Of a stretch of DNA of 64,000 bases, positions 1 through 62,974 are shown piece after piece. Source of the stretch: a virus; IMG/VR virus record IMGVR_UViG_3300027985_000978, positions 1-64,000 of that record. One strand, 5' to 3'. The notes under the pieces were generated by a model. The model did not search any database. It worked only from the letters and a program-made list of their open reading frames with translations, and was not told the DNA's origin. Positions within the stretch are counted from its first letter, which is position 1; every line of letters starts with the position of its first letter. A program made the position numbers and the translations under genes.

Positions 1-273
1 GCTCTTGAACTGGATGAACTACCAGCATTCAGGAACGGTAACGCCAGCCAGCGCCGTGCTATTTTTCTTGCAGAGATGGCTAGACTCATGGGAACCGCTA
101 CGACTGTCACTATGCCACCAGCAACAGAGCCGGTACATACAGCCACTAGCGAACCAGTTAAACAACCTGTATCAACTGCGCCTGCCCAGCCGGTTGAATC
201 GGAGCCGGAACCAATCATAAAAAACCCTAAGCTACCCAACTTAGGCCGCGTGATTAGCGACGACGACGAATAA
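1..273 (+). CDS. C-terminal end of an unidentified protein (5' end outside window)
   Basis: The reading frame is open from base 1 and ends at TAA 271-273, giving about 90 residues. The first third (LDELPAFRNGNASQRRAIFL) looks like the end of a folded domain; the rest is a Pro/Glu/Thr-rich tail ending in DDDE. I do not recognise it. It is followed after 45 bases by a small basic protein with a ribbon-helix-helix-like stretch, and this pair on the + strand faces the long leftward operon. In a P1-like plasmid prophage this is a plausible place for partition genes, but that is inference only. Internal ATG codons (for example at 76) are not needed as starts because the frame is already open upstream. 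Confidence 0.6.
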   Translation, partial: ALELDELPAFRNGNASQRRAIFLAEMARLMGTATTVTMPPATEPVHTATSEPVKQPVSTAPAQPVESEPEPIIKNPKLPNLGRVISDDDE

Positions 274-318
274 CAGAACTCCCATCCAGCCCAGCCACCA
301 GCAACAGGAGTTTGATTG

Positions 319-552
319 GTGGACGGTAAGAAATATAACCCTAGTGCAAAGCGGCAAAGTCGCTTTAGGAAAACGCAACAAAACGCGGGTAAACAACAGA
401 TGACAATCTGGCTGGATACCCACTCGAAAGGTCAGTTCATCAGGATAAAAGAGTTACTTCAGCGCAACAATGAGGAAACTTTTGAAGCAATCATGACCCG
501 CTTCTCTGAATTATCCGATGAAGAGATACTGAACCGACTCAAAGTGTATTAA
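319..552 (+). CDS. Small basic protein, ribbon-helix-helix-like, possible partition or copy-control protein
   Basis: 77 residues from a GTG at 319; an AGGAG at 306-310 lies 8 bases upstream, so GTG 319 is preferred over the TTG at 316. The N-terminal 30 residues are basic and Ser/Gln-rich; the segment QQMTIWLDTHSKGQFIRIKE resembles the beta strand plus helix of ribbon-helix-helix DNA-binding proteins, followed by a second helix. Small proteins of this kind act as centromere-binding or copy-control factors in plasmids, but no specific family was recognised. The gene ends just before a bidirectional terminator that separates it from the leftward operon. A Chi octamer (295-302) lies directly upstream of its RBS. 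Confidence 0.55.
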   Translation: MDGKKYNPSAKRQSRFRKTQQNAGKQQMTIWLDTHSKGQFIRIKELLQRNNEETFEAIMTRFSELSDEEILNRLKVY

Positions 553-583
553 AAAAGGGGGCTTCCTATGCCCCCTGTTCTTT
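551..583. terminator. Bidirectional terminator between convergent units
   Basis: A GGGGGC / GCCCCC stem with a 7-base loop is flanked by A-rich sequence on the left and TTCTTT on the right, so it can stop transcription from both the + gene ending at 552 and the - operon ending at 566. Confidence 0.75.
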
Positions 584-814
584 CTCTGCCAGATAGCTGA
601 TTTCGTTCTGGTCTGCCAGCTTCCGCATTTCACACATAATCAATTCACAACGATCTGAATAACCAAGGCGCTCTGTAAGCTCGTCTAGCATCTTCAGTTC
701 TGTTTTTGATATACGCATCCCCCTAAGCTCACAAATGCCGAATTTAGCCATTTTAGACCGCCTAGCCGCTTGATATTCGGCGTTGGTCTTCCTTCCCGTG
801 GCTGGCCGACCCAT
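566..814 (-). CDS. Small DNA-binding-like protein (ribbon-helix-helix type)
   Basis: 82 residues if translation begins at the ATG at 814, two bases after the stop of the upstream gene (817); the frame is open further upstream but that would overlap the neighbour. The start MGRPATGRK, a basic segment and then a helix-rich region (SKTELKMLDELTERLGYS) resemble small RHH or replication-regulatory proteins. It is the last gene of the long leftward operon. No specific family recognised. Confidence 0.55.
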   Translation of the reverse strand: MGRPATGRKTNAEYQAARRSKMAKFGICELRGMRISKTELKMLDELTERLGYSDRCELIMCEMRKLADQNEISYLAEKEQGA

Positions 815-816
815 TT

Positions 817-1410: not shown

Positions 1411-1434
1411 TGGGGTATGTCCCTTTCGTTGTAA

Positions 1435-2091: not shown

Positions 2092-2099
2092 ATGTCACC

Positions 2100-2570: not shown

Positions 2571-2574
2571 ATAT

Positions 2575-2832: not shown

Positions 2833-2839
2833 GACTGAC

Positions 2840-5136: not shown

Positions 5137-5150
5137 TTGATTAGGATAAT
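5137..5150 (+). promoter_or_regulatory. TGATTAGGA operator-like element, copy a
   Basis: TTGATTAGGATAAT, one of at least ten intergenic copies. The right half TAAT makes it a near-palindrome around GGA. It sits in the 170-base gap between the 510-aa gene and the 60-aa gene. Confidence 0.65.
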
Positions 5151-5466: not shown

Positions 5467-6108
5467 TTAGTTTCTGCCGTTCTCATAGACACGGGACGGC
5501 GCAAACAACAACGGGCAGGCTTTGTTTAGTGCGATCTGGCCGCAATGGGCCTCCCACATTGAGTCATCGAGCGCGTGATGTTTAATACCTTTGAATTCGT
5601 CGGCGTACTTAGTGTTAAGTCCAGCTGCGCGGCCTATCCATGTCAGCGTTCTGGCTGATTGGTTGCCGCCAAAATGCCACGGCGTAGAGATATTCAACTG
5701 CTTGTAAGCGTGGTCAATGATTGAGTTATCAAATTCGGGGCCGTTCCCGACGATCTGGATCTTGCCACCACCACTCATAATTTCTGTATCAGTCAGATAG
5801 CAGGCTAACTCTGCCAGCCCATCAAATAACGATGTACGGGCGCTGAAAGTCAGATCGTATGCTTCTTGGCTGGTCTTGGTTCGGTCATGCCAGAAAGCCA
5901 TTGTGTCGCTATCCCGCGTGCGCTCTACTTGGCCGCTAATGTCGCATGAGGTAAAGAACTGGCCCACACAATCACCCGTGGTCACATCAACACTGGTAAC
6001 ACCAATCGACGCGATAGCTGCTGTGATCTTGGTTGATGTGGTCTCAATGTCCAGATAATGCAATAACGGACTGATCCCGAAGTTTTTTAAATGGTTTGTT
6101 ACTGTCAC
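5467..6108 (-). CDS. 3'-5' exonuclease, DEDDh (Rv2179c-like) family
   Basis: 213 residues from a GTG at 6108 (GGAG 8 bases upstream; GTGA overlaps the previous stop). Motifs of a DEDDh exonuclease are present: YLDIET (D20, E22), GNGPEFDNSIID (D127) and KHHALDDS (H177, D182). The length and the glycine-rich second motif fit the exoribonuclease family seen in many phages rather than a DNA polymerase proofreading domain. The likely role is trimming of 3' ends of RNA or DNA during the infection. It lies in the leftward operon beside genes of unknown function. Confidence 0.85.
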   Translation of the reverse strand: MTVTNHLKNFGISPLLHYLDIETTSTKITAAIASIGVTSVDVTTGDCVGQFFTSCDISGQVERTRDSDTMAFWHDRTKTSQEAYDLTFSARTSLFDGLAELACYLTDTEIMSGGGKIQIVGNGPEFDNSIIDHAYKQLNISTPWHFGGNQSARTLTWIGRAAGLNTKYADEFKGIKHHALDDSMWEAHCGQIALNKACPLLFAPSRVYENGRN

Positions 6109-11383: not shown

Positions 11384-12250
11384 TTAGCTGACAGCTGCGA
11401 TTGCGCGGCCTTCAGTGCTTGTATCTTCGAGTTCAGGGCTTGGATCGCCCGTTGTGTTAATTGCTGGTTGTTCATTTTGTTTCCTTATCGTTTTGTTATT
11501 TTTTTGTTGTACTGGCCGGACATCCACCAGCTGAAATGTTTCTGGATCAATTTCAAAATCAGTACGCTCGACCTGATCGCCTAATGCGGCCCAGCCGTTC
11601 CGGTTCAGACGAGTGAAGACATCAAACTTTTTAGCGCCCTTACCCATGAATCGATCAAGGCGCTGGTAAACAGCGTCGGGCTTCACGCTATGTTCCTGCA
11701 CCAACTCTTCCAAAACTTGGTGAATTCCTTTGTCTTCCCGCTTTGGTTTACCACGAAGGCCAATCAGCACGATCTCAGCGTTGGCGCGGGTATGGCTTCC
11801 CATCCCCCAAAACCACTTATCTTTACCGGCCCGTTTCATTTCTTCAGCGTTCAGGAACGTTAAAACGTCTTTAACCGGTACAATCTTTTGCTTGCCAAAC
11901 TTGGCACGGAAAGCGCGGCGCAATGACAATGCAAAATTCGGCCAATAGTTCTTGGTGCGCTTCACCCATACAAAGCCAACGGTTGAATAACGAAAACCCC
12001 ACGCATTCAGCACAGAAAATGATTCTTCGAGTAGTGGAAATGTCGTCCACATGAACAGGTACGCATCTTTCTTGCAGTAGTCGCCCACGTTCATCTGTCT
12101 TAATTCCTCAATAGACATCGTGTCGTACCAACGGGCCGCGCCACCTCGATTCCTGCTTTCGTCTTTGTAGCGCCACGGCGGATCGGCATGTACCAAATCA
12201 AAACCGCTCGGATCGTGTTTAATGATTTTTTTAACGCTTTTCCCTGCCAT
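11384..12250 (-). CDS. MT-A70 family adenine-N6 DNA methyltransferase
   Basis: 288 residues. The catalytic DPPW is at residues 23-26 (HADPPWRYKD); later come the family signatures GMGSHTRANAEIVLIGLRG and HSVKPDAVYQR. These place it in the MT-A70 class of SAM-dependent adenine methyltransferases, which includes several phage DNA modification enzymes. P1 itself encodes a Dam-type methylase (Dmt), so this would be a different solution to self-modification. The last 55 residues form a polar Thr/Glu/Gln-rich tail outside the fold. The upstream gene is a DnaJ-type zinc protein. Confidence 0.9.
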   Translation of the reverse strand: MAGKSVKKIIKHDPSGFDLVHADPPWRYKDESRNRGGAARWYDTMSIEELRQMNVGDYCKKDAYLFMWTTFPLLEESFSVLNAWGFRYSTVGFVWVKRTKNYWPNFALSLRRAFRAKFGKQKIVPVKDVLTFLNAEEMKRAGKDKWFWGMGSHTRANAEIVLIGLRGKPKREDKGIHQVLEELVQEHSVKPDAVYQRLDRFMGKGAKKFDVFTRLNRNGWAALGDQVERTDFEIDPETFQLVDVRPVQQKNNKTIRKQNEQPAINTTGDPSPELEDTSTEGRAIAAVS

Positions 12251-13364: not shown

Positions 13365-13398
13365 AATTGGCGATACCACCAGCGATAGGATTACGAAA

Positions 13399-14763: not shown

Positions 14764-14954
14764 AAAAAACGGCCTGAATCGTCTAGACAACGAATTCCGG
14801 CTCATGAATTGATGAACTGAAGTCAACCCATGCACACATACAGAATAGGTGAGGCTGTATGCGGGATACTCTATGTATCTTGTTAATGAGTTTAACACAC
14901 CCGATCTGTAGCTCAAGTGTTCATGTGGTGATTTCACTATTTTTAGGTGAAATT

Positions 14955-15752
14955 ATGAGCAACACAACCAAAGTAAACCACAGTCACAAGATCGTTCTGC
15001 AAGCCCAATCATTTTCTTTCTGTAAAGCTGGACAGGTTTTACTCGCAATCGCTTATCACGCCAAGAAACCAGAAAAATCAGGTGAAGGCTGGCGCTGCTT
15101 TCCAAGTCGTCAAAAAATCGCTGAATTAACAGGCATGGTTGAACGTACCGTGTTTACTCAAACTGAACGCCTGATCAAGGCTGGTTTAATCAAAATTATT
15201 AAAAATGGAAAGAAAGGGATAGCGAACGTTTACGAGTTAAATCTTGATTTACTCTTTAATCCAACTGCTCATGTATTCTTCACTCTGACCAACAAAGAAG
15301 AAACTAGCGAATCACAAGCCATTGTAAGGATGTCTAAAGAACGCTCTGAGAACGGTCTGAAGAAACACCTTGCAAAGATAGGTATCATTAAAAACAACCA
15401 AAAAACTTATCCACAACCTACGCAAAATCCGATCCAACCAAAAACCGGATATACAGGCACAACCAGTGATCAAAACGATCCGAGTAACAGTACAAGACTT
15501 AAAGATCTTAAAGAGAACAACGCGCAAGGCGCGACCCCTTCCCCTTTTATGAATTTTTCAAAACGAGCCATTGAGATGATCGCTGAATCAATCAAGTGCC
15601 AGTTAAGCAAGGCAAACGACACAATCAACCGCCTATCAACCGGTTCTGGCACTGAAAGCGAACTAACCCAAGCGTTTAATGACCTAAATCGTATCAATGC
15701 AGACATTGAACGCTATACGCCAGTAGCGCAGCACTACGGGATAGCGATATAG
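14955..15752 (+). CDS. Replication initiator-like protein with winged helix
   Basis: 265 residues from ATG 14955, with AGGTGA just upstream; the longer frame from 14859 lacks a ribosome site. Residues about 10-100 form a helix-turn-helix/winged helix of the HTH_36 type used by plasmid and phage initiators (CFPSRQKIAELTGMVERTVF, then LIKAGLIKIIKNGKKG). Residues 140-185 are a Gln/Pro/Thr/Asn linker whose DNA holds a perfect DnaA box and short repeats, so the origin may lie inside the gene as in lambda O and P1 repL. The C-terminal 80 residues are helical. It is not obviously a RepL-family sequence, so equivalence to P1 RepL is by position and role only. Confidence 0.7.
   Translation: MSNTTKVNHSHKIVLQAQSFSFCKAGQVLLAIAYHAKKPEKSGEGWRCFPSRQKIAELTGMVERTVFTQTERLIKAGLIKIIKNGKKGIANVYELNLDLLFNPTAHVFFTLTNKEETSESQAIVRMSKERSENGLKKHLAKIGIIKNNQKTYPQPTQNPIQPKTGYTGTTSDQNDPSNSTRLKDLKENNAQGATPSPFMNFSKRAIEMIAESIKCQLSKANDTINRLSTGSGTESELTQAFNDLNRINADIERYTPVAQHYGIAI
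15395..15446. other. Candidate replication origin: DnaA box and short direct repeats inside rep
   Basis: TTATCCACA at 15407-15415 is a perfect DnaA box. It is flanked by CAACCAAAAA at 15395 and again at 15435 (period 40). The region encodes a low-complexity linker, so the DNA sequence is free to serve as an origin. Confidence 0.55.
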
Positions 15753-15799: not shown

Positions 15800-16792
15800 T
15801 TACTGGTAGCCTTTAAACTTCTTGCCGAAGATAACTGCACCAGCTGGCACTTTGTCGGTAGTCACTGGTGAAACGCTGGTGACGCGATTAGCTTTACCAA
15901 GCGGCAAAGTGTCTAACTGAATTCCGGACACGGACTCTAAGAACTGGCGGAAAATCAGCGCGTCTTCTGGTGTTTTCATTGCAGCCATAGCACGGCGCTG
16001 TTCATCTGAGAGCATGACCGGAAACTGATCGAGAGATTCAAGGATCAGGGTTTCCCGTTGTTTCTCGCGCTGGTTGAGTTCTGTTTGTGCAGCGTCCAGA
16101 TCGCGCTTTAACTGTGCTGATGCTTGTTTACCTTCAAGTAACATGCCGTTAAGCATGAATACATCGAATTCAGCATTACGCGCCGCTTCAGCTGCAAGAG
16201 ATACGCGATTCCATGAATCAAGGAACATACGATCAGCCTGAATGCCGCGCTGTTGCAGATTGTGAATGATCAGATCGTCAACGGTTGAAACCCCAACTGA
16301 TTCAAACATGGATTGCTGGCGATCATTGGGGATAAAGTTTGGCTGATTCACATAATCGAAACCGAAGAACTGGCGCGGATAGTCTGCACCGTTGCTGGTT
16401 GCACCGGTACAGGCCCATGACCAGCCACCCGCCTGAGATTCAAGCATGGACTGAACAATCAGGCCGCTGGTTGTGTCCATCACTTCCTGAGTATGCGCAA
16501 TGTTGCCTGAATCGTCAGCTTCGATAGACACGGTGAAGTTTGCCGGTACGTTCTGGATAGCAACGGCTTTACCTTCAATCATGACAACTTCAAATTCTGA
16601 AGGTTTCATTTTGTTGGTAGCCTGCCGGACACCATGACCAAAGTAGCCGTACAGTTCGCCCAGCTTTAACCCTTCTTGCGTCTGTGCGGATTCGAGCATG
16701 GCTTTAACCGCGTGCAACACATAACGGCGGCCATTGCCACCAGCACGGCCTTCTTTGTAGATATTAAATTCATCATTAACGCGAATAGGCAT
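15800..16792 (-). CDS. pro: Prohead (head maturation) protease
   Basis: 330 residues, immediately downstream of the portal gene with a 2-base gap. The N-terminal 170 residues contain the beta-rich protease-like part with the conserved-looking GELYGYFGHGVR, GNIAHTQEVMDTTSG and GGWSWACTG segments; S and H residues here could form the catalytic site. A coiled coil (about 220-265) follows and may act as a scaffold. Position next to the portal and opposite darB matches P1 pro-prt. I infer cleavage of capsid and internal head proteins during maturation. Confidence 0.7.
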   Translation of the reverse strand: MPIRVNDEFNIYKEGRAGGNGRRYVLHAVKAMLESAQTQEGLKLGELYGYFGHGVRQATNKMKPSEFEVVMIEGKAVAIQNVPANFTVSIEADDSGNIAHTQEVMDTTSGLIVQSMLESQAGGWSWACTGATSNGADYPRQFFGFDYVNQPNFIPNDRQQSMFESVGVSTVDDLIIHNLQQRGIQADRMFLDSWNRVSLAAEAARNAEFDVFMLNGMLLEGKQASAQLKRDLDAAQTELNQREKQRETLILESLDQFPVMLSDEQRRAMAAMKTPEDALIFRQFLESVSGIQLDTLPLGKANRVTSVSPVTTDKVPAGAVIFGKKFKGYQ

Positions 16793-16794: not shown

Positions 16795-18471
16795 TTATTT
16801 TTCTCCGAGTAAATTGATAATTTGGGAGTGAATGAGGTCTTGTAAATAACCATCAAAGCCTTCAGATCCGCCGTGATAACCTACGGACTCCATGAACCCT
16901 TCCCCGCCTGCATTTTTTGCTGCGCTGGCAAGGTCTTTGATGATTTGGTCTGTTTTGTCTTGATCGATGCGGATAATGTCTGTCAGAACTAAACGCTTGA
17001 ATGATTCAGAACCGGCTAATCTGCCGTTTTCGATAGTGTCTAACAGGGTAGCCAAAGCAGTGGCGTAAGCCGTTCTGACTTCGGTTGCATCTGCCTGTTC
17101 CTGCTCAATGGCGGTATTCAGAGAATGGAAACGAATATCAATCGGGCGTGCTGTACCGGCTGGAAAGACTTTGCCGTACTTATAGGCCATATGAATATCA
17201 ATCAGACGATTGACCGCGTTCACAACGCCCACACGTAACCAGTTCGCCCGAATTGTGGCTTGAATGGATGTTCTGAAGAAGCCCCCATCTCCGAGTCCAC
17301 CACTCATAAGATCACCCCATCCGAGCATGGACACGTCGATCCCAAGTCCCGCACTCATGCGTTTGAGGTGAAACATGATATCTTCAATGTGCTGGATATC
17401 TGGCGACACGGTTTGTGTGTCGATGCTAACGCCACCTTTTGAGCCGGAAAGGTTCGGGATAATGCTGTTCCAGACCGAAGGAATAAGCCCTTTCTGACGC
17501 CCCTTGCGGTATGCCGCTTCTAAGTCTTTGCGTAGCTGTGTACCAACCATATTCAGATAGGACGCTGCACGGGCCGGATCTAAATTGTCCATGCCAAGGG
17601 CAATAAACCGGTCAATACGAGAGGCGTTATAGCGTGAGCCCTTCAGACTTCTGATCGCGTCGGACAGGTCACACCATGCCGGATATGCAAACTCAAGAAA
17701 TGATGTGCCGTAGTCTTGCGTTTCGATAGGCACGCGACGGTGCAGATCGTCATATAACGAATACTGTTTACCCGTCTGGTTGAATGGCTCTTTAAAGATA
17801 TTTGGTTGCCAGTACGGAACACGCAACGCCACCAGTTGCCACGGCTCAACTAATCGAACTTCCCCGCCGTTCACCTGTTCTTTCAGGTATTCAGACGTAT
17901 AGCCAGCACACTGACCGCCGCGCACGTACTCGCGTATATGCTGGGCCATCGTGTAATAGCTGGATTCGATATCGAACACGCCGCGCTTATTGTCTGCATA
18001 GGGCCGGATATAGTGCGTCCCAAAGGCAGCCATGATCTTACACCATGACGGTAAACCCTGATTTAACAGCACGCCCAGCTCTGCCTGAAGGCTGGCCGCC
18101 AGCTCTTTGAATTCTGGTGTCTTGCTGGTGATTTCAAGAATATTTCCGGTCTGACTATCAACACTTAGCGCGTGTGATATGTGCATGTCCAGTGCGCCGG
18201 ACAGAACCGGATCACAGACCATATCCTGAATAAGCCCGTACTTAGCAAAACGATCATCCGGCATCTTTTTATCTGCCATCCAATCCATTGTACCGGTTGC
18301 GCTGGTGGCGCTGTTACCGCTCGGATCAGTTGGCGTGTTATTTAGGCCATACATGACATTTGTACCGCCAGCCAGTAGCGGCAATGACGGATCGTCTACA
18401 TCGGCGGGGTTATACCCGCTAAAGGCTTGCTGAAATAAACTAACAAGCCCCTTTTTTGGTTTGTCTGCCAT
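16795..18471 (-). CDS. prt: Portal protein
   Basis: 558 residues from the ATG at 18471 (MADKPKKGLV), with GTGGGGG directly upstream; the frame is open to 18501 but the later ATG has the ribosome site. Length and features fit a phage portal: N-terminal flexible part, a KMPDDRFAKYGLIQDMVCDP segment, a central conserved region with SRIDRFIALGMDNL and a long C-terminal helix region. It is transcribed towards the protease gene and divergently from darB, across a 130-base gap containing an operator-like element and a Chi site. The dodecameric portal is the channel for packaging and ejecting DNA. Confidence 0.75.
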   Translation of the reverse strand: MADKPKKGLVSLFQQAFSGYNPADVDDPSLPLLAGGTNVMYGLNNTPTDPSGNSATSATGTMDWMADKKMPDDRFAKYGLIQDMVCDPVLSGALDMHISHALSVDSQTGNILEITSKTPEFKELAASLQAELGVLLNQGLPSWCKIMAAFGTHYIRPYADNKRGVFDIESSYYTMAQHIREYVRGGQCAGYTSEYLKEQVNGGEVRLVEPWQLVALRVPYWQPNIFKEPFNQTGKQYSLYDDLHRRVPIETQDYGTSFLEFAYPAWCDLSDAIRSLKGSRYNASRIDRFIALGMDNLDPARAASYLNMVGTQLRKDLEAAYRKGRQKGLIPSVWNSIIPNLSGSKGGVSIDTQTVSPDIQHIEDIMFHLKRMSAGLGIDVSMLGWGDLMSGGLGDGGFFRTSIQATIRANWLRVGVVNAVNRLIDIHMAYKYGKVFPAGTARPIDIRFHSLNTAIEQEQADATEVRTAYATALATLLDTIENGRLAGSESFKRLVLTDIIRIDQDKTDQIIKDLASAAKNAGGEGFMESVGYHGGSEGFDGYLQDLIHSQIINLLGEK

Positions 18472-18531
18472 CAATCCCCCACGGGTTGAGGCTAGGTGCA
18501 ATCGGGCGAATTGCTAAGGACGGGAGCCGAC

Positions 18532-18566
18532 TGTCAAGATCCACCAGCCGAACTGATTAGGATGAT
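18532..18566. promoter_or_regulatory. Divergent prt/darB control region with TGATTAGGA element, copy f
   Basis: TGATTAGGATGAT at 18554-18566 (+) lies about 40 bases before the darB start. TTGACA on the minus strand (18537-18532) could be the -35 of the portal promoter. A Chi octamer (18541-18548) sits between them. Confidence 0.55.
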
Positions 18567-18603: not shown

Positions 18604-21600
18604 ATGAACGCTATCGTAAGCAAGGCGGTTGCGTCTGTAATAGCGGCTCGAACACTTGAGCAGCTGTTAGGGACGTATGACGCGCTATTTCCATTACTCC
18701 ACCAGCAGGACGAACCAGCGCCAGTGTTTGGCGTAGAAAAACAATCTGGTGTATCCATCGAACGAACACGAAAAGAAGCGAACGCGGCGGCGCAAGCTAT
18801 TCTGAAGCGTGTCGGAACCGATCACACGTTACTGACCGAAGAAGACAAAGCTGTTCTACGCCAGTATTCAGGGTTAGGCGGGATTGGTGGCTCTATCCAT
18901 GAATACTACACGCCGCAATGGGTGGCCGAAGGCATTTGGGACGCTATGGCCGCCAATGGCATGGGTGCGGGTAACTTCTTGGAACCGTCAGCCGGTGCGG
19001 GTGTTTTCCACGGAACCAAACCACGCGGCGCAATCATGACCGCAACCGAAATCGATCAAACCAGCTCACAGATCAACCAGCTGTTACACCCTGAAGATCG
19101 CGTCAACAATTCATCCTTTGAAACGCTGGCTGTCAGTTCTGAAGATGGAACGTGGGACGGTGTAGTGGGTAACGTTCCTTTCGGTGAAACTCGCGGTAGT
19201 TATGGCGCACTCGATCCAGAATACGCGCATGTAAAGTATGTCGATGCGTATTTTGTCACTCGTATGCTGGACAAAATCAAAGCCGGTTCGATGATGTGCG
19301 TAGTAGTTCCAATGCGTATCGTGTCCGGCGCAAAATTTAAAGCGTTCCGCAAAGAAATATCTCTCAAGGGCGAATTCTTAGGTGCACACCGTTTGCCGTC
19401 TGGAACGTTCAGCAACAACGGAACGGATACCGCCACAGATATTCTTGTCATGCGTAAGCATCCAGAAGAGTTTTCAGATTTGGTGAACTCACGAAAAACC
19501 ACCGATCTGAAAGCGGCTAACGTGTTATGGGATACATTCATCAATGGCAAATGGTTTGAGACCTCCGAAGGGAAACGTTTTATCCACGGTGAACAATCTA
19601 CAACCGGATCAGGAAAGTTTGCCCGTGAAGTAGTTGATCGGGGAAATATCACTAATGCACAGATCAAAGAGAAATTAGCGCACAAGTTTGAAAGCCGTAT
19701 TGATTGGTTATCACTGGAACTGTCAGAACCAGTTGCGCCGGTTTACGGTGAAGGTGACGAACGCCTGATTAATGGCCGCTGGAACCGTCTTGTCAATGGT
19801 CAATGGCAGGTTATTTCCCTGACTGCAAGCGACGGTGACACAATCGACGCGGGAACGTATGGCGTGAACTCTATCAGCCAGCTAACCACCATGATTAATC
19901 AATCCCCACTGAATGCACTGGAACTGTCATACGATCAAGTTATGGCTGTTGCGCGTGACTTCCCACGGGTGACAGAAGGCGTGATCGCTGATGCTATTAA
20001 ACTTGCGAACGCACAAGATCCGAAGTATCGAGAGCGCATTATCCGTGGCGTGCTGATTGGTCAGCGTATCCGCGACATGAACGACGAAGTGAACCAGACC
20101 GGCATAATTCCGATTGCTACCGCAGCTGAATTGCGCGACTTGGTGAACAACGAGATCGGAAAATATGGTGTTTCAGCTGGTGATAAGAAGATCGCAGCGC
20201 TAACCGGTGGCACTTCTGCCGCTGGCGCATGGAACCAGTTTGTTAGTGCAACGGATATCAACGGCAAATTCTCTGCCCTGCTTACCGGTACACTGCAACG
20301 CGGGGACACGAAAGCCTTTGATGATACCGACGCATCCCAAACTGTCGCCTATTTGTTCGGTCAATTAAACCTGAACCCTGTCGATTTAAGCGACTTTAAC
20401 GATCTGTACCGTGGCGCAACTCCACCTACCCTGTCAGACCTTGCCAAAGTATCCGGTATCGCTATCACACCAGACGGCATGTTAGCGCCAATGGATCGGG
20501 CAACGTGCGGAAATGTCGTTGAAACAACCAACAAACTGATCGCAGCAATGGCAACCACCAGCGATCCGGCGATTCTCAGTAACTACCAAGCGCAGTTAGA
20601 CATGATTAACAAGCGCCGTAAGTGGTCTAAAGTCGATGACATTGAGATCACCATGTCTGCTAAATGGCTGCCGCGCCGCTATGCGCTCGATTTCCTGAAA
20701 GAAGTCGGTTATGAGGCTTTTGAATACTCAAAAGTGACCGACGTTGACGGCGAACTGGTTGATGACAAGGAATACAACGGCTTTGATGGTGTCTTCAGTG
20801 GCTACGGTATCCGTGATGGGAAAAAGCGCTCAAACCAAAACGAGCAGTTTGAACGCCAGTTAGAGAACTATCTAAACGGGGTAACAGTTCGATCCAGTGA
20901 TGCTGCCGCAGCTGCCGGTTATCGCGCCCGTATTGCTGATATCGAGAAGCGTTTTGCAATCTGGATTCGCCAGCATGATGACGTTCAGAAACTAACCGAT
21001 CTCTACAATGACAAATTCAATGGATACGTCCCATTTGATCATCATGATGGTGATTTAGAGCTAGGGGACGATTACCTGTCCGGTAAAGTTGTGCCGTTCG
21101 GTTATCAGTGTTCTGGCGTGCGCCGTCTGTCTGAAGATGGGCGCGGGATTCTGGCGTTTGATACCGGCCTTGGTAAAACTGCATCTGCCCTGTCGCTGGT
21201 GGCGTATAACACGAAGCTGGGCCGCGCTAAACGTACTGCAATCGTCGTCCCGCTGGCTGTGTTCGAGAACTGGTATCACGAAGCAAAAACAGTTTATAGC
21301 GCAAAATTCTTTGAACAGTGTTTGTTTGCTGGCATTGAACCGGTACACACTCAAGACGGCATGATTGAGCAGGAAGCCGTACTGGATGACGAAGGCAACC
21401 CACGAACCGGCGCGAACGGTGAACCACTGACCCGCGATAAGCTCCGCCAGCTGTCCGGCGCTGAAATCACAGCACGCATGAACTCAATTCCGCAAACAAA
21501 CAAAGCTGTCGTTGTCATGACTAAAGAGCAGTTTGCATCTATTCCTATGCGCCCTGAATCAATCGAAGCGCGTTCAGAAAAGATGGTGGACTTGGGTATT

Positions 21601-24600
21601 GATTCCGGCAAGCTGCAAGCAATGGCTAAGAACCACACGCAAGCCATGAAAAAAGAGCGTGCCAAGGAAAAAGCCGCTGACACTGGAACCCTGAAAAAGC
21701 TCGATATTCCTTACTTCGAAGATATGGGATTCGATAACGTCGTGATCGACGAAGGCCATAACTACCGGAACAGCTACAAGGCAGGCCGCGAAAGCAGCAA
21801 ACTTGCTTATTTGCCAACGGCGCAATCAGCAAAAACAGCTATCGATCTGGCGGTTAAATCTGACTATCTGCGCAACAAGTACGACGGGCGCGGCGTCACC
21901 TTGCTGACCGCAACCCCAACGGTGAATAGTCCGATCGACATTTTCAACATGCTCTCTCACGTATTAAGCCCTGAAGAATGGCAGGCTTACGGTATCTATG
22001 ACGCTGACGACTTTGTGAAAGTATTCGGGGAAACCGAAGAAGTCATGGTGCAGAAACTATCCGGCCAAGTTGAGAACAAGCAAGGCTTAACAGGGTTTAA
22101 AAACTTAACCGGCCTACGCTCACTCTTCCACCGCTGGGTAAATCTGAAAGACGCTAAATCAGTGTCAGATACGGTCAAAATCCCTGAACTGGACGAGCAG
22201 AAAACTGAAGCGCCAATGACTGAAGAACAAGCGCAAATCTATGAAACATTGCGTAAACGCGCCGAAGACCTTAGTCACGCTAAAGCATTAGGCATTGTCG
22301 AAACAGACGAAAACGGCTGGCCGATCCCTGAAGATTCTATCTTTGCCATTATTCGAGACATGGATCGCGTCTGTACTGATACTGACTTGTATTACAAGAC
22401 TATGACGTTCCGATTCCCAGCAAACAAGCTGGAAGAGGTTAAGCAGCTGGCCGCCGATTTACCCACTTCAAAAACTATCAAAGCAACTGCCAGTGACAAA
22501 GAGGATGAAGAGGCCGACACGGAAAGTTTAACCACGGATAGCGGCGCTAAAATCACCCCCGACGAGCACGCGGTTACATTGGTTGTTCACGAAGCGTTTG
22601 AAGATGAAGTCATGAAGCGACTGAAAAAGTTCGGACTTGATAAGAAAGACGTTTCACACCCCGTTACACCAAAATATGCGCGTCTGTTGGAAAACCTGAA
22701 AAATGCCTATGAGAACGGCGGCAAACAGATCATCTTCACTGAAGAAAAGAGCCAGCATAACAAGTTAGAGCGCATCATTGCGCATCACTTGGGGATTCCA
22801 TCTGAAGAAATCAGCATCATCAATGCTGCCACCGTCAAGGGTAAAGGATCTGAAGATGATTTACGCGGATTAGAACTGATTGGTGCAGCCTTCAACGAAG
22901 GCAAAGTAAAAATCCTGATCTGTAACAAAAAAGCCGAAGTGGGCGTGAACTTGCACCACGGCACAACTGATATCCATCACCTGACCTTGCCTTGGACACC
23001 TGCAAGCATTAAGCAGCGTAACGGGCGCGGCGCTCGCGTGGGTTCAAAGCAAGACAAGGTGCGCGTCTGGTATTACGTGGGTAAAGGTTCGTTTGATGAA
23101 TTCCGCTTAGAAACACTGAAACACAAGGCGAACTGGCAAAATGAACTATTCACCTCCGATGCGGAACGCATGAAAAATGCCGACGCAGACGATGGCGCAG
23201 AAGCATCTTTGCTACTGGCTCAAGACCCTGAACAGCGTAAAGCGCGTATCGCAGAGAACCAGCGTAAAGCTGAAGAGAAGATCAAACAGGCGGCAATAAT
23301 CCGCGCCAATATCGACCTGCACAACTTCCTGAAAGCGGCGCATGATGCAGCTGGCGATCCTGAAGTGGTAGCCCGTGATTTAGAGCAGGCCAAGGCATTA
23401 ATGGCAACGCTAAACCGGACGTATCAGAACGCGGTAAATAACGCCAATCAAAACCGTGAATATGCAGCTGAGTCTACTACCATGAAAGACTGGTATCTCA
23501 GAAATGCAAAAGACTATGATCGAAAAGCTAAAGCCGCTCTGCCTAAGCTGAACAGCGCCCGAAAAGACGTTGCACGCTTAGAGCGTCAGTCTACCCGTAT
23601 CGCTTCAGCCACCAGCACAATGAAACGCTTACGGCCTGAACTGGAACGCGCCCAGCGTGACAACCTGTTAGAGATCACCAGTGACCTGTTAGACAACGGT
23701 AGCCAATACCTGACAGACGGCAAGAAACTAATCAAGGCTGGAAGCATCTATAACAGCGTATCCGGTGGCAAAATTGCGCGTGTCGAATCATTCAACTTTG
23801 ACACCAAATCAGCCGAAGTCACGTTGCTGTACCTGAAGGGCGAATACCAAAGCAGCAAGTTAAATACGACGACTTGGTGGGGGCTTGAGATTTTCGGCAA
23901 CGAAACCAGTATCAGCATGTCCGAGATAGAAAAACTTCAGAAAATGATGAGCTCACTGGATCTGACCAAAGCGGTTGAGTTACTGGATAAAGCCGAGTTC
24001 AGCGAATACTTACAAGATGGAACACTGACGCTAACCGGTAGCGGTTATGTTTTTTATGATGATGAAGCTGGGTTCCAGTATGAATCGTCGTACAGGATGG
24101 ATAAGAAAGACCTGTCAAAAGTCATCTATCCAGATCCAAAAGATGAAGCGCTGAAGGCGAAAATGGCCGCGTGGCTGTTGAAAGATCGCAGCATGTTAAG
24201 CGACTACCGCTCCGAATATAACTGGATCAAGGCGGTATTCGGTGACAAGCCAACTCAGGCGGTGGAGAACTACGGGGTTAAAGCGCCAGAGCAAGTCATT
24301 AATGAGTGGCTGGCAGGCCGTATGAAAGCCTACAAGGATGCAGCTGACACACAAGGCGAATTGGAGAAACTGAACCGGCTTGAATCTAATGTTTATGGAT
24401 GGAGTTTTGATTCATTCGCATGGCGAAACATGGAAACCCCGCCAGAATATCAGAATATCAGTGACTTTGAGGCTGCCGTTCAGCGTGGTAAAGAGATCCT
24501 GAAGTCTGAAGCCAAGACACTGACTGATGCAGCACAGGCGCGTGCAGCGACGAAATGGCAGGCGAAATGGACGATTGCAGAATCTCAGACACCAGACCAG

Positions 24601-30128: not shown

Positions 30129-30485
30129 CTAGCGGTTCAACAAGTTCAATAACGCATTGTGTCGTCTGACATGGGCCGGAACCGATTCAAACATATCTGA
30201 ATCACTTTCTTCCGAATGATTACCGTCTAAATCGTCGCTGGTGGCCTCTGTCAGCCCCGTTACAGTGATTCCGGCACTTTCAAGCGCCATAGATACCCCG
30301 ATTGGCGTAAATGCGCCTACAGCCATTCTACAGCCTCGCCCGTCCTGTTCGCCGTCGCTCATACCCTCAATTGTTTCCTGATATTCTTCTGGTGTAACAA
30401 TCATTGCGGCTGGTTCGTCGGATGATTCGACATCGAACCGACACACCACCAGCTGATCAAACAATGTAAATGATAGTTCCTGCAT
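30129..30485 (-). CDS. Hypothetical acidic protein, 118 aa, last gene of the antirestriction unit
   Basis: Starts in an overlap with the ddrB stop, so the two are translationally coupled. Strongly acidic in residues 35-100 (Asp/Glu/Ser-rich), with a short basic C-terminus. Small acidic partners beside large injected proteins can be chaperones or inhibitors, but this is speculative. A Chi octamer lies at each end of the gene (30237, 30446). Confidence 0.6.
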   Translation of the reverse strand: MQELSFTLFDQLVVCRFDVESSDEPAAMIVTPEEYQETIEGMSDGEQDGRGCRMAVGAFTPIGVSMALESAGITVTGLTEATSDDLDGNHSEESDSDMFESVPAHVRRHNALLNLLNR

Positions 30486-54474: not shown

Positions 54475-56088
54475 TTAACGGATTAAAGAAGGTGAGCCCA
54501 AAATGCGACGTGCAGTGCCGGTTACACAGCAGCCCCATTGAACGTTCCATGAGTCAATCGCGGTTTGTTCAACGATCAGGGTGTAAGGACTATCGCCGTC
54601 ATCATCTGGATAACGTGGCGTAACCAGCGCTTCCGCAGTCACAAAGTTTTCCAGCACTTCAGTCATGCCACGGGTTAAGCCGCGCTCGGTGATACCGTCA
54701 GGACTGTGCTTCAGCTGGCGTGCAAGGTCATAGAACTGGCGTGAAATCGCGTTCATCACAGAGGAAACATGCTGAAAGCGCAGATAGTCTTCAGTTGAGC
54801 GGCAAGTAATCGCGTCATCAATCATCAGTAAGCCGGTTGAAGACAGACCAAGTTTGTTGATACGGGCCTTATACATGGCCTTCTCGTCAGCAGTGCCGAT
54901 ACCAGACAGGACTTTGATTTCACGACGGTTAATGATGCCGCGATCTTCACCCGCTGGTGAGTAATGCCAGCCACCGACAGAACCGGTAGAAATCGCCACG
55001 CCTTCCGCTTTCGCCTGAAACGCAATACCGGAGATACCCCACACAGCGCGACCACCTGAATGTGGATCTTTGGCTGAATACGGGAAGTGGTAGAAACACA
55101 TGTCATGATTGTTCAGATTCATATCTGACATGAATGTGAGCGCACCCGCGTAGCTGGTGGCTGGTGGAATGTCGAAGAATGAATCAATACGGCGGCCTGA
55201 AGCTAAATCGCCCAGCGCTTCGATCACGGTTGTATCGTAGCAACCTAAGCCCAGCACGGCGGTAAAGCCCACCAGCGCATTGTTTAACACTTCAATCGCT
55301 TTATCATATTGCGTTGCAGAGATAGTTTTCTGATCGCCTAAATCACCACCAGCAAAAGCAGTTTTCGTAATACCAGTTGCAAACGCGCTTAAATCCGCGC
55401 CGTCAGCGATTGCGATAGATAAGCATTCGCTCTGTGACTGCAAACGGTTTTCGATGTAGGACGTAACACCCATATCGTCCACGGCATCCAGATTGAAAGA
55501 TACTTCCAATTCTTCAACCGTGTATTCCACACCAAACTTATCTAGTGCCGATAAAGTCAGCGTGAATGACCCATCTTTGCCATCAATCGGCGTCATTTCG
55601 ATGAAGCGGCCTGATACGTCACCATCTTTTGGATAGAGAACGAATAAATCACCTTCAGAGCTGACACTTGGAATCACACCAAAAGCAGCTGTACTTCCTA
55701 CTGGTGTAACTGGAACTGGATCACCCTCAAGTGGATTATTTGCCGCGTTCAATTCAACGTCAGTTACGCGCAGATATGGGAAAATAGCTTCTTCAGCCAC
55801 CACACGCACAACGTAGCCTGAACCACCTTCCACCGCGTCAGCAACGTGACGTAATGGCTCTGCAATAACGCTGCCTAATGATGGGTGATACGGTAAACCC
55901 AGCTTGCTTTTCCAAGTCGATTTGTCGATCTGGATGATTTCAAACGGCTGGCCCTTTTCACTGATCACGACACCAGCGAAAATTGACTCACTACCCGTGC
56001 CGCCCGTGGAAATGGTAGTGCTGGCGTTGATTGCCTGCACTGCCACTTGTGCCACGTTCGACAGGGTTAATGGAATCGCGTTATTCAT
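54475..56088 (-). CDS. 22: Contractile tail sheath protein
   Basis: 537 residues. The N-terminus (LSNVAQVAVQAINASTTIST, FAGVVISEKGQPFEIIQIDK) and the C-terminal core domain (RKMLYK-like region with KINKLGLSSTGLLMIDDAIT and RFQHVSSVMNAISRQFYDLA) have the general organisation of sheath proteins, including the P1 gp22 type. Next to the capsid gene as in P1. Contraction drives the tube through the cell envelope. A double Chi (55153-55167, two octamers sharing one G) lies in it. Confidence 0.75.
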   Translation of the reverse strand: MNNAIPLTLSNVAQVAVQAINASTTISTGGTGSESIFAGVVISEKGQPFEIIQIDKSTWKSKLGLPYHPSLGSVIAEPLRHVADAVEGGSGYVVRVVAEEAIFPYLRVTDVELNAANNPLEGDPVPVTPVGSTAAFGVIPSVSSEGDLFVLYPKDGDVSGRFIEMTPIDGKDGSFTLTLSALDKFGVEYTVEELEVSFNLDAVDDMGVTSYIENRLQSQSECLSIAIADGADLSAFATGITKTAFAGGDLGDQKTISATQYDKAIEVLNNALVGFTAVLGLGCYDTTVIEALGDLASGRRIDSFFDIPPATSYAGALTFMSDMNLNNHDMCFYHFPYSAKDPHSGGRAVWGISGIAFQAKAEGVAISTGSVGGWHYSPAGEDRGIINRREIKVLSGIGTADEKAMYKARINKLGLSSTGLLMIDDAITCRSTEDYLRFQHVSSVMNAISRQFYDLARQLKHSPDGITERGLTRGMTEVLENFVTAEALVTPRYPDDDGDSPYTLIVEQTAIDSWNVQWGCCVTGTARRILGSPSLIR

Positions 56089-56523: not shown

Positions 56524-58167
56524 TTAAGCCGGTTGTGTGAAGGTCAGTTTGGTGAAGTAACGGCCACCGTCATTAGGGTGAACGTCGCAGTAAGCCAGTT
56601 CCCACAAGGTATTGCGGTCAACCAATGCTTTAGTGGTTTCGTGGTTGTAAAGCGTTGCAGGAACCGCATCACCGGCTACGATACCGGCTTGGGTGTGCTG
56701 TTCGCCGCGTGCATAGCACAGACAGTCCCACGCGCCCAGCTTGGTATCTGTATCGCCTTTGATTGCTTCAACTTCAGTAGGTACTTCAAAGATTTTGAAC
56801 TGACCAAACAGCACGCCGACATAGTGGATACGCGGTACTTGTTTATAGTTCGGGGCCATCTGGAAGAAGGTAGAGTCCAGCGATTTGATAACTGCACATG
56901 CCGCAGCACCCATGAACAGACCCACCAGACCAGAAACTTTTGTACGCACCAGCATGTCTTGAGACAGAGTGAGTAAAGTCTGATTCAGTGATTCGTAATG
57001 TTCAGAAGGTTTCAGGCCATCCGGTACGGTCAGATCGAATGAAGCGGTATCAGTTGCCGCGATCAACATTTTACGCAGGTTGCGTAAGTCTTTTTCATAC
57101 GCAAGATAGTTGCGTAAATGGTTCATCTGCATAGAGCGCATATCGAGAGAGAATTCACGATTCATTGCCCAATACGCTTGAATGGTGTGCTCTGCCGCGA
57201 TCACGGATTCATGCGGTTTCAGTTTCCATGATTGCATGTCATGAGTGATAGTCGGGATCAGGTCTGCTTTTGCTTCGATGTCTACATCGAATTCCAGCAT
57301 CAGCTTCATACCAGATGGCAGTTCAGCACCAGAAGTGATAACCGCAACACCTGTTGCATAGGTCAGTGTGGCGTTCAGGGTAATTTCAGTTTCACCAACG
57401 GTGACAGAACCAAACAACTTCGCTGATTGACCGTCGATTTCGGTAGCAACTACTTTGCGGTTTGCCAGCAGTTTGACCGTGCCTTTTTTGAACGGAACAA
57501 CAGTCTGGAAGCCAGCAGTTGAAGAGTCGTAAGTGAAAGATGTTTTCACGCCATCCGGTTGTTGGTCAGCCAAGAACGGGTAGATCTGGTTCATTGACGC
57601 ATATTGACCATTCGCAAACAGGCCGATTTCATCACCCGCTGTGTAGTCACCGAAGGTTGAGCCAGCCACGCGGCGGATTTCAAAAATTTCAGTTTCGTTT
57701 GCTTGTGCTGGGATGTAAGTTACAGCGTCAGAAGTTGCCGCCATCAGCATAACAGGCAGGATCAGACCGGCTTGTTTAGCGCGGATTTCAACACCTTCAG
57801 AAGTGGACAGGGAAGTACCGATACTTTCCAACATCTTCACATTACCGTCAGCTGAAATGCCGGTAGTGATATTGCGTAATGATTGCGCCGCAGACGCTAA
57901 GATCTCGTCAGAAGGCAGCGTACCGTAGCAGTCATAGAATTCTTTGATAGCAGAACCCCACGCCACCGCAACACCACCAGCATGAGCGCCTAACGCTTCA
58001 AACATGGGATGTTTTTCAGCCATTGCAGCGATAGCGTTCATACGCGCTTTGTCGTCAGCGATAAAACCAGACTGATCAAACATTGCATCGACACAAACGG
58101 CGCGGATCTGTTCCGAATCTTGAGTAATAGCAGCGACTCGCGCCGCGTGTTTTTGTTTAGCAGACAT
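56524..58167 (-). CDS. 23: Major capsid protein
   Basis: 547 residues from ATG 58167 (MSAKQKHAARV), preceded by AGGGGC; the frame extends to 58266 but that part lies in the promoter leader. The long N-terminal helical region up to about residue 110 could be a cleaved delta domain. The core (GVEIRAKQAGLILPVMLMAA onward) and the length agree with the P1 gp23/T4 gp23-like capsid group, HK97 fold. It is the first gene of the sheath/tail unit and has an upstream TGATTAGGA element. Confidence 0.75.
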   Translation of the reverse strand: MSAKQKHAARVAAITQDSEQIRAVCVDAMFDQSGFIADDKARMNAIAAMAEKHPMFEALGAHAGGVAVAWGSAIKEFYDCYGTLPSDEILASAAQSLRNITTGISADGNVKMLESIGTSLSTSEGVEIRAKQAGLILPVMLMAATSDAVTYIPAQANETEIFEIRRVAGSTFGDYTAGDEIGLFANGQYASMNQIYPFLADQQPDGVKTSFTYDSSTAGFQTVVPFKKGTVKLLANRKVVATEIDGQSAKLFGSVTVGETEITLNATLTYATGVAVITSGAELPSGMKLMLEFDVDIEAKADLIPTITHDMQSWKLKPHESVIAAEHTIQAYWAMNREFSLDMRSMQMNHLRNYLAYEKDLRNLRKMLIAATDTASFDLTVPDGLKPSEHYESLNQTLLTLSQDMLVRTKVSGLVGLFMGAAACAVIKSLDSTFFQMAPNYKQVPRIHYVGVLFGQFKIFEVPTEVEAIKGDTDTKLGAWDCLCYARGEQHTQAGIVAGDAVPATLYNHETTKALVDRNTLWELAYCDVHPNDGGRYFTKLTFTQPA

Positions 58168-58250
58168 TGAATTGCCCCTATTGTTTAAAAAACGGCTAAG
58201 AGCTGGTTCTGACCAACTCCAAATAGGGCAACAAATTGTATGGGGGATGG

Positions 58251-58264
58251 GAGTGTAACCACTC
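58251..58264. promoter_or_regulatory. Inverted repeat in the major capsid leader
   Basis: GAGTG - TAAC - CACTC. On the minus strand it is followed by CATACAATTT (a TACAAT -10) and then GTTGCCC, so it lies where an activator of a late promoter would bind. Confidence 0.5.
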
Positions 58265-58285
58265 AAGGGTCGTAAGCCGATCTCT

Positions 58286-60628: not shown

Positions 60629-61623
60629 GATTGGATCACCCCCGTAGTTACCTTGCACTTGTAGCTCTTTTTATCCCCGATATGACTAACCAGCGTGATT
60701 AGCTGGCGTGCTGGCATGGATTCATCCAGTACAGCATTTTCAGAGAACCGGTTTAAGCGAACACCGATAGTCATTCCAGCCGTATATGAACCATTCCCCA
60801 GCATGTCAGCCAACATGCACGGGACGACATGCACATGAAGGTTATTCAGTGCCTCTAATGGGACTTGCGGGAGTATTTGCGGCGGCGCGTCAGGGTTCGC
60901 CGTTGATTTCTGCATACCGTTGACGATATCCCACGATATATAGCATTTTGTCGCTTGTCGGGCGGCGGCTTCCGCTACGTGGATCGCTTGATAGGCATAG
61001 ATTGGATGGTCTGTTTTCTGGCCCTGATATTCCAGTACCGGATAATCCTTTTCCTGATTCCCCAGCATGGTGAGCGGCGCACAGTAAACCGTCCCGCGTG
61101 CCACCCAAATAGCAGCCCCCAAGTCACGGCAAACTTTGCGCAGCATGGCAGCTGGCGTTGATCCGGCTGTGACATGCTGATACAGCTTGTTTTTCATGCT
61201 GGTGGCATTGCTGGCGATTGAAATCTTATAACCGGCGAATAGTTCAGCCAGAATATCCGCGATCTTGTCACCGTTAAAAAACATGGCTGTCTTCACTGGT
61301 TGCTTGAGCGCGTAGACCTGCTTTTCTATCGCTTCCACGCGCAGCCGATCACCCTGTACGATTGGATGGCCCACAACAAAATCAGTCGTAAAATAAGCAT
61401 CACCGCGCCCGTTCGGATCGCCCATTTTGACGCTTAATACCGCGCCATCCACCAGCCCGTAGTTATCGCGTAGTGTGCCGTCCACATCATAGAAATTGAG
61501 AATGAGTAACGGCCCCTCAAGGTTGATACCCTCAATGTAAGTACCACTATCAAGGTTATAGATCGGGATCTCCGTGCCGTTCACGGTGATTTTCTGGAAA
61601 AAGAGTTGCTGAAGTTCAGCCAT
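60625..61623 (-). CDS. Baseplate hub protein (gpD/gp27-like), 332 aa
   Basis: ATG 61623 (MAELQQLFFQ) with GGGGG 9 bases upstream; a TTG at 61629 is an alternative. NFYDVDGTLRDNYGLVDGAV, then FVVGHPIVQGDRLRVEAIEK and the central SMKNKLYQHVTAGSTPAAML segment resemble hub proteins that hold the spike. It is coupled to both neighbours by overlaps. Confidence 0.7.
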   Translation of the reverse strand: MAELQQLFFQKITVNGTEIPIYNLDSGTYIEGINLEGPLLILNFYDVDGTLRDNYGLVDGAVLSVKMGDPNGRGDAYFTTDFVVGHPIVQGDRLRVEAIEKQVYALKQPVKTAMFFNGDKIADILAELFAGYKISIASNATSMKNKLYQHVTAGSTPAAMLRKVCRDLGAAIWVARGTVYCAPLTMLGNQEKDYPVLEYQGQKTDHPIYAYQAIHVAEAAARQATKCYISWDIVNGMQKSTANPDAPPQILPQVPLEALNNLHVHVVPCMLADMLGNGSYTAGMTIGVRLNRFSENAVLDESMPARQLITLVSHIGDKKSYKCKVTTGVIQS

Positions 61624-61625
61624 GA

Positions 61626-62432
61626 TCAAGCCCCCATGTCAAAAACAGGGATCGGTTCTAACAGGTTGTAATTCACTTCCTGTTCGTTGGCATAAACCCC
61701 CTCATAAACCGGCGCAACCACTTCAACCGTCGCAGTCAGGCACAACAGGCGATCACTTTCGATATCAGGGCTCATATCGTCCCATGAAATCGTGTTAGGC
61801 AGGATATCCACCGTGCCGTCAATCGCCAGCCCAAACACCCGCGATTGCACTAGGAATGTTCGGGCGTGTAGCCGGAAATAACTTGCATACAGTGTCGCCA
61901 TACGGGAAAGCGTGACTTCATCCCATGCCAGCAAATACACCTGATACGTCAGGTTTAAGTGGTGCTGGTGGACATATGCGCCCAGCGTTTCCGTTTCATC
62001 TTCATTCACTGTGCCTAAGTCAGCGATCTGGCGAACTGGAATATACCGATCCCCTTCCGCGTTCGAGAAGCCCAGCTTTCGGTTAAAGAACACGATTGGT
62101 AGCGCCTGTAAGTTGATTGCAGGCTTATTGCCGGTTTCAGCGATAGAACTTGCCACCTCGTCAGTGCGGCCCTTTGCAGACGCCCTCAGAGCCCGTAGAA
62201 ACGATTTCGGATCTTGATAGGGAGATTTCTTCACCTGATCTTTCGGGGCGCGTTCCAAGAATGACAGAAACGCCTCGTATTGCTTGGCTGTACTGGACAC
62301 TTGCGCACCTTGCAGGATTGCCACCAGCAAATTACCGAAGCCGATATCTACCGGCTGGAAATCATGCGTTTCCCGTTCCGTTCCCAGCGTTGCAACAAAC
62401 TCAGTCCATGAAACAATAATTGGATCAGACAT
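61626..62432 (-). CDS. Baseplate-associated protein, 268 aa
   Basis: N-terminal helical part, then a mixed domain with VFFNRKLGFSNAEGDRYIPV and LTATVEVVAPVYEGVYANEQ. No firm family; its position between hub and spike-side genes suggests a tail or baseplate component. Confidence 0.6.
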   Translation of the reverse strand: MSDPIIVSWTEFVATLGTERETHDFQPVDIGFGNLLVAILQGAQVSSTAKQYEAFLSFLERAPKDQVKKSPYQDPKSFLRALRASAKGRTDEVASSIAETGNKPAINLQALPIVFFNRKLGFSNAEGDRYIPVRQIADLGTVNEDETETLGAYVHQHHLNLTYQVYLLAWDEVTLSRMATLYASYFRLHARTFLVQSRVFGLAIDGTVDILPNTISWDDMSPDIESDRLLCLTATVEVVAPVYEGVYANEQEVNYNLLEPIPVFDMGA

Positions 62433-62974
62433 TAGGCGGCCCCCTCAAGGATTGCGGCGGCGGCTTCTTGCTGGGCCGATTCCAGATCGCCACATGGGAT
62501 ACAGATATGCAGCGCACCAGCTGAAGCTGTACCGATCACATCCACTGAATGCACATACCACCAGACAAGGCGGTTTTCGCCGTTGCTGTCCTCTTCGGCC
62601 CACTCCAAGATCGAACCGACCGGCGCTTGACCAGCTGATAACAGCACAGTGAGCGTGCCGCTTGCACCGTCACCCGTACTGTCTGGTTCGTCCCACATAC
62701 CGGAGAATGCGGGATCATCCAGTGTCGCCACTAAGCACGATCCGAATTGTGGCAAATCATATGAGATTGCGTGCTGGTGGATATCCACATCACCAAATAG
62801 CGCGGTTTCATCCGTGGGTTCTTCAGGTGTGTTTTGTGTCCCGTTCGGGATGTAAATCAGCACATCAAAACTGTCAGGATGGATCTCAATTAAGCGCCGC
62901 CAATCATCACGGATCTGGTTGTTGAGTGGGGAGTGTCCGGCATTCCTCGCCCTTGTTAATACCGCTTCGGTCAT
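62432..62974 (-). CDS. Baseplate/tail structural protein, 180 aa
   Basis: Beta-rich, with IPNGTQNTPEEPTDETALFG near the start and an LVWWYVHSVDVIG segment late. It overlaps neighbours by one and four bases. Possibly a baseplate ring or tail terminator protein; not recognised. Confidence 0.55.
   Translation of the reverse strand: MTEAVLTRARNAGHSPLNNQIRDDWRRLIEIHPDSFDVLIYIPNGTQNTPEEPTDETALFGDVDIHQHAISYDLPQFGSCLVATLDDPAFSGMWDEPDSTGDGASGTLTVLLSAGQAPVGSILEWAEEDSNGENRLVWWYVHSVDVIGTASAGALHICIPCGDLESAQQEAAAAILEGAA

Follow-up and report, generated by a model that had tools for sequence, protein, structure and literature searches.

The DNA analyzed here (hereafter the window) is the first 64 kb (64,000 nucleotides) of the 81,679-bp IMG/VR virus record IMGVR_UViG_3300027985_000978, and its most conspicuous feature is the recombination hotspot octamer Chi, present in 69 exact copies (27 GCTGGTGG and 42 CCACCAGC, or roughly one every 0.93 kb) that are spread over positions 115 to 62,780 on both strands and in all reading frames. 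Since the two ends of the contig share a 144-bp direct repeat, the genome is circular, with a size of 81,535 bp, of which the window represents 78%, and the Chi copies at 115 and 81650 are one and the same site. The whole circle harbors 94 Chi sites (57 minus and 37 plus; 1.15/kb), a density about 5-fold that of E. coli. A megablast comparison with phages, plasmids, and E. coli yielded no relative at the DNA level, and the capsid protein used as a query gave no match among viral contigs. Judged by protein comparison, the genome is that of a divergent P1-like phage: PacB (77045-78550 of the contig, beyond the window) shares 57%, the capsid protein 36%, and the PacA homolog 22 to 31% identity with their P1 counterparts, homologs of the P1-type structural and Dar proteins are present (prt, pro, 22, 23, bplA, sit, tub, darA, darB, ddrB, hdf, and ulx), and a Cre-like recombinase (28%; 74007-75119 of the contig, also beyond the window) and a StbA-like partition protein are encoded. 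The nearest relative found was the Aeromonas hydrophila plasmid NZ_CP121796.1 (PacB, 78%), a P1-like plasmid, and the IMG record G001 was a second close one (PacB, 77%); because of these two relatives, the host is probably Aeromonas-like. Beyond the window, at about 79.34 to 79.61 kb of the contig (~79341-79612, minus strand) and inside pacA (78550-79872), TGATC[AG] hexamers are clustered more densely than anywhere else in the genome. This cluster is arranged as in P1, whose known pac cleavage sits in the same kind of cluster, and on its sequence it is recognizable as the pac site.

A first-pass annotation, made from the letters of the window, had estimated about 69 Chi sites, no Chi-free stretch longer than about 2.8 kb, scarce one-base variants, and occurrence in every frame and on both strands, all of which was borne out: the count was exact, the largest gap in the window is 2,788 bp, one-base variants occur in 0 to 13 copies each (ACTGGTGG, 5; TCTGGTGG, 4), and a frame count placed Chi in all frames, in antisense orientation, and in intergenic DNA. 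The commonest class is frame 2 sense; compared as rates, antisense and intergenic Chi are on a par with the other classes. The overlapping octamers noticed at 55153-55167 are a real tandem pair on the plus strand (GCTGGTGGCTGGTGG, sites starting at 55153 and 55160), and of four sites described as intergenic, those at 18541 and 33559 are so by a greedy open reading frame (ORF) call, while those at 13376 and 14553 lie inside weak ORFs. Chi ranks first among all canonical octamers of the window, the runner-up (32 copies) shares seven bases with it, and no unrelated octamer is as enriched. For the whole contig, base composition predicts 2.2 sites, an order-2 Markov model 5.2, and an order-3 Markov model 8.6, the last being exceeded elevenfold. 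The earlier claim that codon use would not suffice also stood up to codon-preserving shuffles. Synonymous-codon shuffling of the genes, in which 83 Chi were observed, gave 11.5 ± 2.9 sites (maximum 23 in 200 shuffles), and shuffling that preserved codon-junction dinucleotides too gave 19.9 (maximum 23 in 12 shuffles). Since Chi exceeds the synonymous shuffles, is conserved above matched octamers, and loses its enrichment in relatives that bear RecT or whose hosts are not known to use this Chi (see below), these sequence comparisons support selection on Chi as such.

Chi sites among P1-like relatives

For comparison across the clade, Chi was counted in 23 records. It is the rank-1 octamer in the present genome and in 16 further P1-like panel genomes, with observed-to-expected ratios of 3 to 16 under the order-3 Markov model. 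P1 (50 sites), D6 (53), Cronobacter JK004 (103), and the Aeromonas plasmid (78) all have it as their top octamer, and it holds this place as well in relatives from Pantoea, Serratia, Xenorhabdus, and Vibrio diabolicus and in the Chi-rich IMG/VR panel records. The Shewanella relative is intermediate (13 Chi, 3.4-fold), and Chi is close to expectation or absent in the Xanthomonas, Pseudomonas, Paraburkholderia, Vreelandella, and Acinetobacter relatives and in record G022. In the comparison with relatives of other hosts, proposed in the first-pass annotation, the enrichment was lost in relatives that carry RecT or live in non-enteric hosts. Synonymous shuffles left a large excess in JK004 (94 observed, mean 17.3) and P1 (43 observed, mean 6.6) and none in Rb1 of Xanthomonas (13 observed, mean 12.8). 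Between aligned relatives, Chi is conserved 2 to 3.5 times as often as composition-matched octamers, namely 35% versus 10% at 65 to 75% identity and 67% versus 33% at 75 to 85% identity. A substitute Chi sought in relatives of other hosts, with one genome each and hence no statistical power, was not clearly above expectation outside the Pseudomonas relative, in which GCTGGCGC, the Pseudomonas Chi, occurs 61 times against 33.9 expected.

RecT was found only in G022, G023, and Rb1, which have 0, 29, and 13 Chi, respectively, and was absent from all 16 Chi-rich records searched. ERF and Gam were found nowhere in the panel, the present phage included; for this phage, the absence of a recombinase or inhibitor holds for RecT, ERF, and Gam. 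Ref is encoded by this phage (65415-66116 of the contig, beyond the window) and by nearly all Chi-rich relatives. Record G022, P1-like and with RecT, has no Chi in 79 kb where about 4 are expected, which makes Chi avoidance possible.

That P1-like phages are rich in Chi has been published before, and this phage adds another such genome. Chi is over-represented in phages that lack a recombinase, and among the non-lambdoid E. coli phages examined, the strongest excess was that of the P1-like and T5-like ones (Bobay et al. 2013, PMC3784561); the first-pass annotation had named P1 as Chi-rich, in agreement with its 50 published sites (PMC10028697, PMC3784561). Counts in other phages are 0 in lambda and P22, 2 in N15, 3 in T4, 7 in T7 (all on one strand), 8 in T5, and 31 in SSU5. 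T5, with 7 of its 8 sites on one strand, has too few to serve as a second case for the layout described below.

Orientation of Chi around pac

Recognition of Chi by RecBCD requires entry from the 3′ side of GCTGGTGG, and in P1 packaging runs from pac toward PacB. In every Chi-rich genome GCTGGTGG is in excess on the PacB-coding strand (the pac strand; minus in this phage), with pooled counts of 715:414 in 17 genomes, that is, a bias of 1.73 compared with 1.24 to 1.30 for composition-matched octamers. The bias persists within sense, antisense, and intergenic Chi taken separately, for which reason coding-strand bias was rejected as the cause of the polarity. Minus dominance between 5 and 30 kb of the window, as initially noticed, is real (16 CCACCAGC versus 4 GCTGGTGG at 5261-27521, the first part of which falls in the zone upstream of pac on the circle); it agrees with the bias of the clade and is not significant by itself.

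When the circle was divided into tenths from pac onward in the packaging direction, the ratios of pac-strand to anti-strand Chi were 56:45, 79:68, 74:75, 54:38, and 49:28 in the first half and 44:22, 50:27, 52:24, 82:15, and 96:24 in the second. A scan of the whole circle in 15 genomes placed the strongest orientation switch at pac, with 178:39 in the 20% upstream and 135:113 in the 20% downstream, so that the Chi orientation able to stop RecBCD leaving pac prevails about 5:1 upstream, and the ratio downstream is about 1:1. The likelihood ratio (LR) of the switch was 20.7, while the highest value in 1,000 random rotations was 7.2. Bootstrapping over genomes located it from −0.01 to +0.03 of the circle relative to pac, and on a kilobase scale the change-point fell at +0.6 kb (range, −1.1 to +2.4 kb); composition-matched octamers had an LR of 3.2 at pac and peaked 0.08 of the circle further on. 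In 10 further genomes, taken as a replication set, the counts were 110:19 on the upstream side and 100:93 on the downstream side. The sign of the switch agreed in all 24 informative genomes of 25, G001 being a tie (13:0 and 2:0). Since relatedness of the genomes inflates pooled p-values, the safer figure is the sign count over non-redundant genomes, which was 16 of 16 (pooled, 192:36 upstream versus 150:126 downstream). The switch was seen alike for sense, antisense, and intergenic Chi. A replication origin was also considered as the pivot and rejected, as roughly half a circle separates oriL and oriR of P1 from pac. Thus, the comparison of Chi orientation with packaging that the first-pass annotation had proposed revealed, across relatives, a switch at pac, a layout invisible from the window because pac lies outside it, near 79.4 kb on the contig. 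Whether this layout is novel is uncertain: no statement on Chi orientation around pac was found in the literature searched, which excluded the 2004 P1 genome paper.

Packaging ends as the proposed target of RecBCD

The layout may be explained by the action of RecBCD on DNA ends generated during packaging. By holding the host Chi about once per kb, the phage would passively defend itself against host RecBCD and also recruit it, and selection would act mainly through the double-strand ends that arise when PacA/PacB cut at pac, presumably in concatemers, as the homology of both proteins to those of P1 suggests. RecBCD loaded on the end that stays outside the capsid would move upstream and meet a readable Chi within a few kb; in an unwinding model that assumes a recognition chance of 0.3 per Chi (a textbook order of magnitude), the median DNA unwound upstream of pac was 4.2 kb, compared with 18.4 kb with the orientations reversed. 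At Chi, degradation would end, RecA would be loaded, and recombination would begin; Ref acts on RecA filaments and hence would fit downstream of Chi. RecBCD that enters virion DNA at pac would move downstream and need anti-strand Chi, which are densest in the first 30% downstream, and RecBCD that enters from the other, distal end of the headful, which lies just past pac, would move back and need pac-strand Chi, so that retention of both orientations downstream of pac would fit virion DNA with its pac end and its distal headful end. We infer that host RecBCD is the reader, that packaging has the P1 direction, and that the pac ends are the selected substrate. The explanation as a whole, in which host Chi shields pac-cut ends from RecBCD in a temperate P1-like phage with no detectable recombinase or inhibitor of its own, appears to us probable. 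We regard as evenly balanced its extension to the P1-like phages of Enterobacterales, Aeromonas, and Vibrio, according to which Chi would be a one-way barrier upstream and a two-way barrier downstream of pac, kept despite turnover of sites and genes, and would belong to the packaging system through selection by RecBCD action on pac-cut ends, with the octamer reporting the host Chi, including the formerly doubtful one of Aeromonas. The first rank of Chi in the Aeromonas relative suggests that the RecBCD of the host of this phage recognizes GCTGGTGG.

Several points weigh against this interpretation. Taken by itself, the present genome shows no significant switch (14:6 versus 15:9), its strand bias of 1.57 is not above that of composition-matched octamers (1.68), and the minus excess is not significant against skew-matched ones. 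The G+C skew also shifts near pac, about 0.06 to 0.08 of the circle downstream; moreover, pac was placed from the PacB start and the packaging direction was borrowed from P1. Finally, recombinases outside RecT/ERF (such as Rad52/Sak types) and RecBCD inhibitors besides Gam (such as Abc2 and small fast-evolving ones) were not exhaustively excluded, and host and recombinase are confounded as causes because the Chi-poor relatives differ in both at once.

The first-pass annotation had proposed that Chi was selected to help the genome survive RecBCD when linear, for example before circularization. Selection for Chi stands, while circularization after infection as the only reason is less favored, since the layout across relatives points to pac-cut ends and, above all, to the end outside the capsid. 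In its full form, this alternative holds that Chi mainly serves the infecting linear chromosome by limiting RecBCD loss at both virion ends and promoting RecA-dependent circularization across the terminal redundancy. It would account for the density of both orientations 10 to 30% downstream of pac (about 1.1/kb versus 0.5 to 0.6 mid-genome, with anti-strand Chi at 2 to 3 times the mid-genome density), the zone into which both ends of the first headful would fall. However, going by P1, processive headful packaging should leave most virion ends permuted, and the strongest signal is nevertheless the one-way bias just upstream of pac, a region exposed on concatemer cutting; we consider this alternative doubtful, though the most serious of the four. 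Rather improbable, in our view, is that Chi feeds RecBCD/RecA recombination at broken forks and concatemers in lytic replication, a role already proposed for phages that lack a recombinase, the polarity being a by-product of replication direction. The confinement of RecT to Chi-poor relatives and the published over-representation in recombinase-less phages, T5-like and P1-like most of all (PMC3784561), speak for such a role, but the switch lies at pac and not at the P1 origins about half a circle away, and composition-matched octamers, which track the skew, show no switch there.

RecBCD products also feed CRISPR adaptation, and Chi together with EcoKI sites alleviates restriction, so Chi might guard against spacer acquisition or aid restriction alleviation. 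In E. coli, Chi-bearing plasmid DNA sets off both SOS and restriction alleviation (PMC11109961), and a homolog of the anti-restriction protein DarB is encoded here; since this idea predicts no orientation switch at pac, we hold it to be quite unlikely. The notion that the octamer is a product of codon usage (Leu-Val, CTG GTG), G+C skew, or dinucleotide bias draws on frame 2 sense being the commonest class and on the part of the strand bias that is common to composition-matched octamers. As full explanations these were refuted by the synonymous shuffles (11.5 and 19.9 versus 83), and the comparable antisense and intergenic rates and the first rank among octamers leave this origin hardly conceivable. 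If the pac-centered layout is true, Chi, usually regarded as a recombination hotspot or bacterial self-marker, would be tied to one definite stage in the life of the phage, and the reason for extreme Chi content in recombinase-less phages could be tested directly in P1. In uncultured phages, Chi orientation could help to locate pac and the packaging direction, and their enriched octamer could reveal the Chi of hosts for which this sequence is not known.

Other features and comparison with known systems

Among the P1-type genes of the window are those for the head-processing Pro homolog (15800-16792, minus), the portal protein homologous to P1 prt (16795-18501, minus; 38% identity), the DarB homolog of 2,237 amino acids (18604-25317, plus; 40% identity to P1 DarB), the DdrB homolog (30485-33538, minus), the tail sheath protein homologous to P1 gp22 (54475-56088, minus; 43%), and the major capsid protein homologous to P1 gp23 (56524-58266, minus; 36%). 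Three products had no P1 match in the protein comparison, namely an Rv2179c-like 3′-5′ exoribonuclease (5467-6108, minus), an MT-A70 methyltransferase (11384-12250, minus), and an O-like replication initiation protein (14859-15752, plus); the Aeromonas plasmid also has annotated products resembling the first two. Other repeated words were found as well. A TTCCTAATCA-like word occurs in 17 copies of TCCTAATC/GATTAGGA against 1.3 expected, at 5139, 5195, 8605, 12973, 13010, 14683, 18555, 29504, 30032, 39401, and 58287 in the window and at 65420, 67939, 67989, 68357, 76180, and 79896 of the contig beyond it; these are probably dispersed operators of a C1-type repressor of this phage, like TTGCTCTAATA in P1. 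TGTACCGG/CCGGTACA is present in about 22 copies in the window (e.g., at 17152, 18289, 33195, and 37722), with 23 copies of TGTACCGG in the contig against 2.8 expected, and a related palindrome, CGGTACCG, occurs 50 times in the Pseudomonas relative, 30 times in G013, and 18 times in G020. Another palindrome, CGCATGCG, has 34 copies in the Vibrio diabolicus P1-like contig against 2 expected.

Among the closest known systems is P1 itself (Punavirus), with which this phage shares pacA/pacB, Cre, Ref, DarB, the structural genes, and the arrangement of pac, as well as Chi as the commonest octamer (in P1, 31:19 on the PacB strand) and the lack of any RecT, ERF, or Gam found. It differs from P1 in Chi content (94 in 81.5 kb versus 50 in 94.8 kb), in a rearranged gene order, in the low identity of the capsid protein and PacB given above, with no megablast match, and in its probable host, which is Aeromonas-like and not E. 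coli. Cronobacter JK004 and the Pantoea P1-like contig have about 1.1 Chi/kb and the same orientation layout at pac, although their proteins are divergent (PacB, 55 to 58%), their hosts are other, and their Chi mostly lie at other places. The A. hydrophila phage-plasmid NZ_CP121796.1 resembles this phage in the first rank of Chi (78 sites, 0.90/kb) and in the bias upstream of pac (14:1), but its G+C content is 57% compared with 49% here, and its DNA aligns over only about 12 kb at 67% identity. Lambdoid phages without a recombinase likewise over-represent Chi and concentrate it between the origin and the packaging site, yet at about 0.2 Chi/kb and in a text that is silent on orientation relative to the packaging site (Bobay et al. 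2013).

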